Shown here piece after piece: positions 19,021-21,718 of a stretch of DNA of 64,000 nt. The notes below the pieces were generated by a model. It ran no database searches. It saw only the letters and a program-made list of their open reading frames with translations, and was not told where the DNA came from. The first letter of the stretch is position 1. Each line of letters begins with the position of its first letter. This DNA comes from Saccharopolyspora shandongensis. GTDB lineage: Bacteria; Actinomycetota; Actinomycetes; Mycobacteriales; Pseudonocardiaceae. The stretch lies in the NCBI RefSeq assembly GCF_900106995.1, contig NZ_FNOK01000006.1:1-64000 (forward strand), in the 5' to 3' direction. The position numbers and the translations under genes were made by a program.

Positions 19021-19706
19021 GCCTCACCCTGACCGATGTCCGCCTGACCTACCCCGACGGCGACCGCGTACTCACCGCTCTCGACGAGGTGTCGCTGCAG
19101 GTCGAGCCCGGCCAGGTGCTGGCCGTCGTCGGGCCCTCCGGCTCCGGCAAGTCGAGCCTGCTGGCCGTGGCCGCGACTCTGCTGCGCCCCGATTCCGGCC
19201 GCGTGGTCGTCGACGGCGTCGACGCCGTCGGTCTGTCCGCGGCGCAGCGGGCCCGGCTGCGGCTGGAGAAGATCGGCATCGTCTTCCAGCAGCCCAACCT
19301 GCTCGGTTCGCTGACCGCCGCCGAACAGCTGCTCGCCATCCAGCACATGCGCGGCGTTCCGGTGCGGCGGCAGCGCCGCGCGGCCGTCGAAGCGCTGGCC
19401 GCGGTCGGGCTCGACGGCAAGCAGCACCGGCGGCCGCACCAGCTCTCCGGTGGTGAGCGCCAGCGGGTCAACATCGCCCGCGCCCTCACCGGCAGGCCCG
19501 CGGTGCTGCTGGTGGACGAGCCGACCGCCGCGCTCGACCAGGAGCGCGGCGGCCAGATCGTCGAGCTGCTCGCCGAGGTCACCCGCCAGCACCAGGTCGC
19601 CACCGTCATGGTCACCCACGACACCGAGTACCTCGACCAGGTCGACGACGTGGCCGTGATGCGCGACGGGCAGCTGACCCGCTCAGTAGCGGGTGCCCAT
19701 CGCTGA
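19017..19706 (+). CDS. MacB/LolD-type ABC transporter ATPase
   Basis: The 229-residue ATPase has Walker A 'VGPSGSGKSSLL', Q-loop 'GIVFQQPNLLGSLTA', signature 'QLSGGERQRVNIARAL', Walker B 'AVLLVDEPTAALD' and switch His in 'VMVTHDTEY'. It powers the adjacent FtsX-like permease, overlapping its stop by 4 bases. The 3' end overlaps the convergent trpS gene by 24 bases. Confidence 0.95.
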   Translation: MSLTLTDVRLTYPDGDRVLTALDEVSLQVEPGQVLAVVGPSGSGKSSLLAVAATLLRPDSGRVVVDGVDAVGLSAAQRARLRLEKIGIVFQQPNLLGSLTAAEQLLAIQHMRGVPVRRQRRAAVEALAAVGLDGKQHRRPHQLSGGERQRVNIARALTGRPAVLLVDEPTAALDQERGGQIVELLAEVTRQHQVATVMVTHDTEYLDQVDDVAVMRDGQLTRSVAGAHR

Positions 19707-20735
19707 GCGCACCTCGGCGAGGGTCGCCTCGGCGATGGCGTTGGCGCGCTCGTTGCCCTCGCGCAGGATCCGGCGCAGATCGCCGCGATCCTGCGCGAAG
19801 GCGGCGCGTCGTTCCCGCATCGGCGCCAGGTACTCGTTGACCACCTCGGTCACGGTGCGCTTCAGCTCCGCCGCGCCACCCGAACCGATGTCCGCGGCGA
19901 CGTCGTGCGGATCGCGCCCCAGGCACAGGGCCGCGAGCAGCACCAGGCTGGAGACCTCCGGGCGCGACTGCGGGTCGTAGGTGATGTGGCGCTGCGCGTC
20001 GGTCTTCGCGCCACGGATCAGCCGCGCGGTCTCATCGGCGGTGGCCGATAGCGTGATCGCGTTGCCGCGGCTCTTGCTCATCTTGGTGCCGTCGGTGCCC
20101 AGCAGCAGCGGCGCCGGCGACAGCAGCGCGTCCGGCTCGGGCAGCAGCCGCCCGTAGCGGTCGTTGAAGCGGCGCGCGATCGTGCGGGTCAGCTCCAGGT
20201 GCGGCAGCTGGTCCTGGCCCACCGGCACCAGATTGGCCTTGCAGAACAGGATGTCGGCGGCCTGGTGCGCCGGGTAGGTGAACATCAGGCCGCTGACGGC
20301 CGCCTGCCGCGAGTGGTTGATCTCGTCCTTGACCGTGGGGTTGCGGCTGAGCTCCGAGACCGACACCAGGCTCAGGAACGGCAGGAGCAGCTGGTTGAGC
20401 GCCGCGACCGCGCTGTGGGTGAAGATCGTGGCGGTCCGCGGGTCGATCCCGGCGGCCAGGTAGTCCAGCATCAGGTTGTCCACGTGCTCGCCGAGGTGCT
20501 CGGCGACGTCGCGGTCGGTGAGCACCTGGTAGTCGGCGATGATCACCATCATCTCCACGCCCTGGCGCTGCAACCGGACGCGGTTGTGCAGGGTGCCGAA
20601 GTAGTGGCCCAGGTGCAGCAGCCCGGTCGGGCGGTCGCCGGTGAGCACTCGGAAGTCGTTGGGGCGCAAGGTGATCTGCTCTTCCAGCTCGGCGCTGCGG
20701 CGCGCGGCGGTGGACGTCTCGATCACGGTGGTCAT
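19683..20735 (-). CDS. trpS: tryptophanyl-tRNA synthetase (attenuator-controlled, auxiliary type)
   Basis: The 350-residue class I synthetase charges tRNA-Trp. It shows the HIGH-type motif in 'RPTGLLHLGHYFGTL' near residue 45, 'MVIIADYQVLTDRD', and 'GTDGTKMSKSRGNAI' (KMSKS) near 220. ATG 20735 follows GGAGAA. The 5' leader holds a Trp-rich leader peptide and an attenuator, so the gene responds to uncharged tRNA-Trp. In S. coelicolor an auxiliary, indolmycin-resistant TrpRS is controlled in the same way; by analogy this is probably a second TrpRS that is induced when the housekeeping enzyme is blocked. Whether it is the only trpS in the genome cannot be seen here. Confidence 0.93.
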   Translation of the reverse strand: MTTVIETSTAARRSAELEEQITLRPNDFRVLTGDRPTGLLHLGHYFGTLHNRVRLQRQGVEMMVIIADYQVLTDRDVAEHLGEHVDNLMLDYLAAGIDPRTATIFTHSAVAALNQLLLPFLSLVSVSELSRNPTVKDEINHSRQAAVSGLMFTYPAHQAADILFCKANLVPVGQDQLPHLELTRTIARRFNDRYGRLLPEPDALLSPAPLLLGTDGTKMSKSRGNAITLSATADETARLIRGAKTDAQRHITYDPQSRPEVSSLVLLAALCLGRDPHDVAADIGSGGAAELKRTVTEVVNEYLAPMRERRAAFAQDRGDLRRILREGNERANAIAEATLAEVRSAMGTRY

Positions 20736-20795
20736 GGTGTTCTCCTCGGTCTGGTGGCGGGGTCCGGCCGGGGCCCGCGACGCGTGGAGAACACG

Positions 20796-20822
20796 AAAAA
20801 GGGCCGTCCATCCGAACGGCCC
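20796..20822 (-). terminator. attenuator terminator in the trpS leader
   Basis: On the minus strand GGGCCGT (20822-20816), an 8-base loop and ACGGCCC (20807-20801) are followed by TTTTT (20800-20796). This is a textbook intrinsic terminator upstream of, not after, a gene. Confidence 0.9.
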
Positions 20823-20849
20823 GAGACGTGCGTGCTGAGATGGCCGCTC

Positions 20850-20891
20850 CTAACCGGAGCGCCACCACGCGAAGCACGAACTGCGAATCAC
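20850..20891 (-). CDS. trp leader peptide (13 residues, Trp-Trp)
   Basis: GTG 20891 to TAG 20850 encodes MIRSSCFAWWRSG. Two consecutive Trp codons (TGG TGG) in a 13-residue peptide are very unlikely by chance in a leader placed before a Trp-tRNA synthetase. The start lies 6 bases after TAGGAT, so the message may begin at the GTG itself. Confidence 0.85.
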   Translation of the reverse strand: MIRSSCFAWWRSG

Positions 20892-20977
20892 ACCGCCATC
20901 CTAACCCGCTCCGGCCGCACGCCGCCCGCGGTATGACCGAAGCCATCCCCGCGGCGGCGGCCGGTCCGGGGATGCGG

Positions 20978-21718
20978 TCACGGGACTTCCACGGTCATCG
21001 TCGTGTCGGTGACGGCGAACCCGAGCCGCTCGTACACGTGCTGCGCCGGGTTGCCGACCGTGACGGCCAAACCCACCTCATGCCGGCCCTGCGCGCTCAA
21101 CCATGCCATCGCGCGCCGCAGCAGCAGCCCGCCCAGGCCCGCGAATTCCGCCGCCGGACGGCGGAACACATCGCCCACCCACGGCACGCCATCGCGATCG
21201 TTGACCACCAGCCCGGCCGCGACCTGGTCGCCGGCGTCGACCACCAATGCGCTGCACCCCAGCACGGGCCCCAGCACCCGGCCGGCCAGCAGCGGCTGCA
21301 GCAGCTCCACCAGCACCTGCTGGTCGTCGCCGGAGCCCCGGTCGGGGTGATCCGGCGGGTACGCCTCACGCCACGGCGCCAGCAGTTCCGACGCCGGGCG
21401 ATCGCAGTCCACCAGCCGCAGCGGCGCCGCCGGGACCAGGTCCGCCCACTCGCGCGGTGGAGGGTCGGCCCGCAGATCCCGCCGCATCGCATGCGCGTGC
21501 CGCTTCAGCCGCGCACCTGCGCGCACCAGCACCTCGCCGTGCTCCGGCGTGGCGAACAGCTTCCACCCCGGCAACTCCGCGCGGAGCAGATCCAACGCGC
21601 CAGGTCCGTCGATTCCCAGCACCCGCGCGGTGCGCGGCATCCCGTTCGGGACGTAGGACACCGTCGTGGCGCCGTCCGACAGCACCGCGGTGTCGCCGGT
21701 GTGGTTCTGCTGCATCAT
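20978..21718 (-). CDS. GNAT-family acetyltransferase
   Basis: The 246-residue protein has a C-terminal GNAT domain: 'AALVVDAGDQVAAGLVV'-like strands, then 'FAGLGGLLLRRAMAWLSAQG' where the acetyl-CoA loop lies, 'VGLAVTVGNPAQHVYERLGF' and a final strand. The N-terminal 120 residues are an extra domain of unknown role. No partner gene points to a substrate. ATG 21718 is one of two adjacent Met codons. Confidence 0.78.
   Translation of the reverse strand: MMQQNHTGDTAVLSDGATTVSYVPNGMPRTARVLGIDGPGALDLLRAELPGWKLFATPEHGEVLVRAGARLKRHAHAMRRDLRADPPPREWADLVPAAPLRLVDCDRPASELLAPWREAYPPDHPDRGSGDDQQVLVELLQPLLAGRVLGPVLGCSALVVDAGDQVAAGLVVNDRDGVPWVGDVFRRPAAEFAGLGGLLLRRAMAWLSAQGRHEVGLAVTVGNPAQHVYERLGFAVTDTTMTVEVP

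Follow-up and report, generated by a model that had tools for sequence, protein, structure and literature searches.

We analysed a window of 64,000 nucleotides (nt) from the soil actinobacterium Saccharopolyspora shandongensis (contig NZ_FNOK01000006.1), whose minus strand carries a putative ribosome-mediated transcription attenuator upstream of trpS, a gene for a tryptophanyl-tRNA synthetase (TrpRS). The gene (19683..20735, ATG at 20735) encodes an auxiliary TrpRS of 350 amino acids, is assigned by matches to TIGR00233, PF00579 and structures in the PDB, and is preceded by a GAGGAG resembling a ribosome-binding site (20742..20747). The leader, on the same strand, opens with a −10-like box, TAGGAT (20898..20903), which ends 6 nt 5′ of a GTG at 20891; this codon begins an open reading frame (ORF) of 13 codons (MIRSSCFAWWRSG, 20850..20891, recognised from the sequence and by comparison of loci) that closes with TAG at 20852-20850 and contains two adjacent Trp codons, TGG TGG (20862..20867), the presumed sensor codons, with a WW pair at this place in most related leaders. 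Four segments can pair in alternative ways. Segment 1 (TGGTGGCGCTCC, 20856..20867) overlaps the Trp codons and is the 5′ arm of a pause hairpin (helix 1:2); segment 2 (GGAGCGGCCA, 20841..20850) is the 3′ arm of that hairpin and the 5′ arm of an antiterminator (helix 2:3); segment 3 (20814..20822) is the 3′ arm of the antiterminator and the 5′ arm of an intrinsic terminator (helix 3:4), and segment 4 (20801..20809) is the 3′ arm of the latter. The terminator stem spans 20822-20801 and is followed by TTTTT (20796..20800), both segment 4 and the T run also being indicated by a terminator scan, so that 96 nt separate the GTG from the end of the T run, both included. The first-pass annotation of this DNA had described the box, GTG, ORF, tandem TGG, pause hairpin and terminator, all of which lie at these positions, and had suggested a segment able to form an antiterminator, which exists as an 8-bp helix pairing 20849-20842 with 20821-20814. 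The scan found one terminator-like site in 20500-21300, compared with a mean of 0.2 in shuffled sequence. A 168-nt stretch folded better than its dinucleotide shuffles (z −3.2; 1 of 200 shuffles equally good), as did a 119-nt stretch (z −3.5; 0 of 200).

The leader is strongly conserved among relatives of the gene. In named genomes, 381 stretches encode a relative of the window trpS, and we kept the best 80, which together with the window made 81 loci; among the matches listed, the nearest named orthologue is that of Saccharopolyspora elongata (97% identity), and the Streptomyces copies share about 75% identity with the window protein. The layout of the leader is not a product of chance, for it recurs in 77 of these 81 homologous loci, and in 75 of these the two Trp codons are adjacent (the other two, L047 and L052, read RW). 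The peptide has 13 residues in 74 of the 77, stops with TAG in 76 and TAA in one, and starts with ATG in 67 and GTG in 10. A TAnnnT box lies upstream of the start in 77/77 (6 nt away in 66, 7 nt in 11); at the same spacing it precedes 103 of the 17,217 ATG and GTG triplets of these loci (0.6%). Among several in-frame starts our script preferred those with a TAnnnT box, by which the 77/77 is somewhat favoured, and three leaders (L038, L052 and L079) were placed by hand; the constant 13-residue length indicates that the choice of start was right. Codons 5′ of segment 1 vary while the start spacing, the 13-codon length and the TAG stop stay, and at least 4 of the 8 nt in the T tract are T in 70 of the 77 leaders. 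With a −10 box 6–7 nt from the start codon, no room is left for a Shine-Dalgarno site, and by sequence the layout is a leaderless one. The earlier suggestion that translation begins at the 5′ end of the RNA, made from the 6-nt spacing between TAGGAT and GTG, gains support from this comparison, and MIRSSCFAWWRSG is probably translated in that way.

Alignment A1 comprised these 77 leaders (76 distinct, one duplicate row being merged in the pair counts) and left out L027, L043, L049 and L075. Throughout it, the pause, antiterminator and terminator helices use overlapping segments and so are mutually exclusive. The pause helix was paired in 99.4% of 683 cells, with two pairs changed on both sides (5 cells), and the terminator in 99.6% of 681 cells. 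The antiterminator was paired in 98.5% of 605 cells, and two of its eight pairs were changed on both sides in 4 cells: three leaders have G-C in place of A-U, and one has A-U in place of G-C. Among 500 shuffles of this helix, a control that ignores the relatedness of the sequences, none reached its percentage of paired cells, its double-change cells or its covariation score; one matched the number of double-change pairs and 144 the number of pair types. Sliding the antiterminator partner by 1–3 columns lowered pairing to 17–70%. The Trp codons and terminator, which had been expected to recur before orthologues, are conserved there, and the folding alternatives proposed at the outset, 1:2 with 3:4 versus 2:3, exclude each other.

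Folding of sub-sequences, with the first free base placed 13 nt past the first base of the codon in the ribosomal A site, gave the same result for all leaders in three situations. A ribosome placed at the first Trp codon before segment 4 had been transcribed gave a predominance of 2:3 in 77/77, one placed at the stop codon gave a predominance of 3:4 in 77/77, and in free RNA 1:2 and 3:4 prevailed in 77/77. We consider it about 90% probable that an auxiliary TrpRS, itself probably inhibitor-tolerant, is controlled here by ribosome-mediated transcription attenuation. The RNA would start at or near the leader GTG, where a ribosome would initiate with no Shine-Dalgarno sequence ahead of it. With ample Trp-tRNA, this ribosome would reach TAG and cover segment 2, leaving segments 3 and 4 to form the terminator. 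When Trp-tRNA is scarce, under tryptophan starvation or because the housekeeping TrpRS is inhibited, it would stall on the two TGG codons and cover segment 1; segment 2 would then pair with segment 3 while segment 4 is still to be synthesised, and polymerase would continue into trpS. On a leader that no ribosome has entered, 1:2 and 3:4 would form and transcription would end.

The other TrpRSs of the genome (10.15 Mb in 134 contigs) argue for an auxiliary role. PF00579 matches six places, three of which are TrpRSs: the window copy (contig C61), one on C24 and one on C76. The prediction of a second trpS is borne out by the two further genes; C76 is the housekeeping enzyme, and the window copy and C24 are auxiliary. 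The closest structures to the window TrpRS are those of Deinococcus radiodurans TrpRS II (1yi8, 1.3e-70; 2a4m, 1.9e-70), with 241 bits to each versus 159 to 1i6k, and in sequence it is a TrpRS of the Deinococcus TrpRS II type. For C24 the order is reversed, with 77 bits to TrpRS II versus 252 to a standard bacterial TrpRS. The C24 trpS has a leader of its own, MRAMLNMWWAVRGRPSIVVH, with TAACAT 6 nt before its GTG (L008:1135-1263), and a WW leader precedes C24-type trpS in all six genomes examined (our own, four further Saccharopolyspora and Labedaea). A clear T run is absent after the 3′ hairpin of this leader in our genome and the four Saccharopolyspora loci, and in Labedaea TTTTT follows shortly after the hairpin. 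No WW leader was found before housekeeping trpS in any of 13 upstream regions (450 nt in 12, 700 nt in our genome). With one before both auxiliary copies and none before the housekeeping gene, the WW leader offers a readable marker for a probable inhibitor-tolerant auxiliary TrpRS.

Less expected among these findings is that a single genome has two auxiliary trpS genes, unrelated to each other, that both follow a WW leader of their own. Together they may form a multi-tiered back-up of tryptophan charging that senses inhibitors. In this view, two leaderless attenuators with Trp codons, built independently of each other, stand before two unrelated auxiliary enzymes (one of TrpRS II type, one Bst-like), the housekeeping gene has none, and the attenuator of the TrpRS II-type gene has moved along with that gene through several actinobacterial families. 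We lean slightly towards this wider interpretation.

Two pocket residues of the enzymes bear on inhibitor tolerance. At the positions of Q9 and H43, numbered after Bst TrpRS, enzymes of the window type carry R for Q and Q for H in 81/81, the C24 type carries T and H (6/6), the S. lividans type carries K and H (2/2), and housekeeping TrpRSs keep Q and H in 11/11 usable copies (of 13; L112 and L113, extracted as 2 residues, were dropped). Q9 and H43 of Staphylococcus aureus TrpRS appear in a table of contributions to chuangxinmycin binding (PMC12093056). These comparisons support the view that the replacements in the window type may lower inhibitor binding. In each of three species that we presume to be S. 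griseus-like, the TrpRSs number exactly two, a housekeeping enzyme and one of the window type that is encoded behind a leader of the MTSVPCRNWWRSS type. S. griseus itself is described as having two TrpRSs, of which SGR_3809 is the indolmycin-resistant auxiliary one (Vecchione and Sello 2009, via PMC6804068). Because the three related species have this pair of enzymes, SGR_3809 is probably of the same lineage as the window TrpRS, a comparison drawn through those species. The two pocket residues, together with this probable link, lead us to predict that the window TrpRS is indolmycin-resistant.

Several observations weigh against reading the locus as an attenuator of an inhibitor-tolerant TrpRS. 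Six of the 81 loci lack an intact WW leader: L047 and L052 read RW, L027 has a pause hairpin and terminator and no Trp codon, and in L043, L049 and L075 no leader or attenuator was found within the 600–700 nt searched. In six of the 77 leaders fewer than 3 of the 8 nt after the terminator stem are T, and the congener G124 (C1:1206226-1207316) has no terminator between its retained leader with the first hairpin and the beginning of a split trpS, which is matched by two overlapping parts that lie in different frames. A promoter scan of 20500-21300 returned 0 promoter-like sites and no −35-like hexamer. Covariation is thin because the leader bases are strongly conserved; the terminator has one pair changed on both sides, in a single cell, which 18 of 500 shuffles attained, and a one-column slide of the antiterminator gave a covariation score of 0.040 versus 0.037 for the antiterminator itself, but with 70% of cells paired. 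When a stalled ribosome is combined with full equilibrium folding, 3:4 prevails over 2:3 in 76/77, and antitermination must therefore be kinetic. Lastly, the assignment of SGR_3809 to the window type is an inference.

That L027 retains a hairpin and terminator without Trp codons, and that the WW-RS codons lie within segment 1, where RNA pairing alone could fix these bases, would suit a leader that is untranslated, with a terminator that by itself holds trpS at a steady low level and an ORF that is a by-product of a conserved pause hairpin. Such an account would leave unexplained why the start codon keeps its 6–7 nt distance from TAnnnT and why 13 codons (74/77) and TAG are kept despite variable codons upstream of segment 1, and in the C24-type trpS the WW pair sits in a different peptide with different flanks; we regard this explanation as very improbable. 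It seems hardly credible that a riboswitch, a tRNA-binding T-box or a TRAP-like RNA-binding protein acts here in place of the ribosome: no Rfam family reached its gathering threshold anywhere in the window, the 96-nt leader falls below the size of a T-box, and none of these would account for the WW ORF of 75/77 leaders.

A different question is which role a ribosome-mediated attenuator would serve here. The auxiliary TrpRS might act mainly in nitric oxide (NO)-linked nitration of tryptophan, a role that has been proposed for Deinococcus TrpRS II, or simply in rescue from starvation. D. radiodurans TrpRS II provides the nearest solved structures to the window TrpRS, its interaction with NO synthase (NOS) has been reported (PMC9437257), and two NOS genes occur in our genome (C43:270454-271518 and C58:339173-340072). 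These genes, however, are on other contigs than the window trpS (C61), and NOS genes are found in 21 of 22 Saccharopolyspora species, including G237 and G260, which have no window-type trpS, so that their presence does not discriminate. We consider a main role of this kind unlikely, though worth keeping in view, and favour an auxiliary TrpRS that is probably inhibitor-tolerant.

The attenuator and the gene occur together. Window-type trpS is present in 19 of 22 Saccharopolyspora species, G124 among them, and absent in three, and the attenuator model R1 matched exactly the same 19; all 22 have a 33–37% identity match that fits a housekeeping TrpRS. G260, one of the three without the gene, has a match of 44 residues only, near a contig start (C49:266-397). 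This remnant and that in G124 suggest that window-type trpS is being lost in places, faults of assembly also being possible, and the patchy distribution suits a dispensable gene. Within our own genome the window site is the sole convincing match of R1 (4.1e-22). The other five (expectation value, E, 0.15–8.9) were the opposite strand of this site and four weak places, two of which, inspected by eye, lie before a release factor 2-like ORF and at a tRNA-like stretch. No short ORF with WW or WxW was found in the 800 nt before the start of the Pfam domain of our genome's trpE.

In the family sample the model matched 46 of 297 genomes (51 matches, E ≤ 1e-3), and we examined 50 matches (29 search loci, 20 fetched loci and the window), one in G093 being left out. 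Thirty-two lie before window-type trpS, 4 before C24-type trpS and 6 before an anthranilate-synthase-like gene, and 8 look unrelated. The six anthranilate-synthase-like genes (L166-L170 and L172), one confirmed by Pfam (Chorismate_bind and GATase) and the others judged by eye, have R1-like leaders with NWWP, such as MSARQNMNWWPAW. The eight unrelated matches, all among the 20 fetched (E 2.5e-4 to 9.1e-4), had no TrpRS by tblastn and no visible Trp leader, and were taken as plain terminators. The model also matched 33 of 199 Streptomyces genomes, counted whatever the gene behind the match, and one Streptomyces (G476) has two equal-scoring attenuator copies 7.8 kb apart (C40:212266-212387 and 220022-220143). 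Four of 396 genomes matched in the phylum sample (E ≤ 1e-5): our own, one with window-type trpS and two with WWPAS leaders and no TrpRS behind them.

Attenuators of the Escherichia coli trp type work by a four-segment logic with tandem Trp codons, and the window leader shares both traits; unlike them, it is probably leaderless and controls an aminoacyl-tRNA synthetase gene. Vecchione and Sello reportedly described in 2010 an attenuator of an auxiliary, antibiotic-resistant trpS, presumably that of S. coelicolor. Relative to that species the first-pass annotation had called the window locus a parallel case with a leaderless peptide, and parallel it is: the enzyme behind the S. lividans-type leader is about 33% identical to that of the window. 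Leaderlessness does not set it apart, since TrpL2 of S. lividans TK24 (MMTRTCTQLWRAA), which precedes trpS and has a single Trp codon, is also reported to be leaderless (PMC8079986). Both are short Trp leaders, probably leaderless in the window's case, with hairpins before trpS, yet TrpL2 has one Trp codon and no U-rich tract was found there, whereas the window leader has two Trp codons and TTTTT. A pattern for the TrpL2 leader matched 2 of 246 Streptomyces genomes, and the TrpRS behind it in these two shares 33% identity with the window enzyme, 51% with C24 and 50% with C76; given that 33%, the window gene is a parallel case and not an orthologue.

Attenuators have also been predicted before S. 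avermitilis trpS2 and before trp operons of Actinobacteria (Seliverstov et al. 2005, PMC1262725). The window locus resembles these in having a leader with Trp codons, an antiterminator and a GC-rich terminator followed by poly-U, and the triple gGCC-rGCy-GGCC given there resembles segments 3, 2 and 4. At least one trpS case is named there, whereas our comparison covers 77 loci with pair counts. The class of mechanism and leaderless trpS leaders are already published. Ribosome-mediated attenuation of an aminoacyl-tRNA synthetase gene is an arrangement with few documented cases, which our data extend to 77 aligned ones before genes of TrpRS II type, and if the leader is truly leaderless it would be a small natural system in which to study attenuation beginning at a 5′-terminal start codon.

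Two further observations concern other synthetase-like genes and the surroundings of trpS. Elsewhere in the genome (C55:9500-14000), a TyrRS-like gene adjoins a second class-I synthetase-like ORF (PF00579, 50 bits). In the window, the 3′ end of trpS on the minus strand overlaps by 24 bp (19683-19706) the 3′ end of a convergent plus-strand ORF that ends at 19706 and, judged by eye, resembles an ABC-transporter ATPase.
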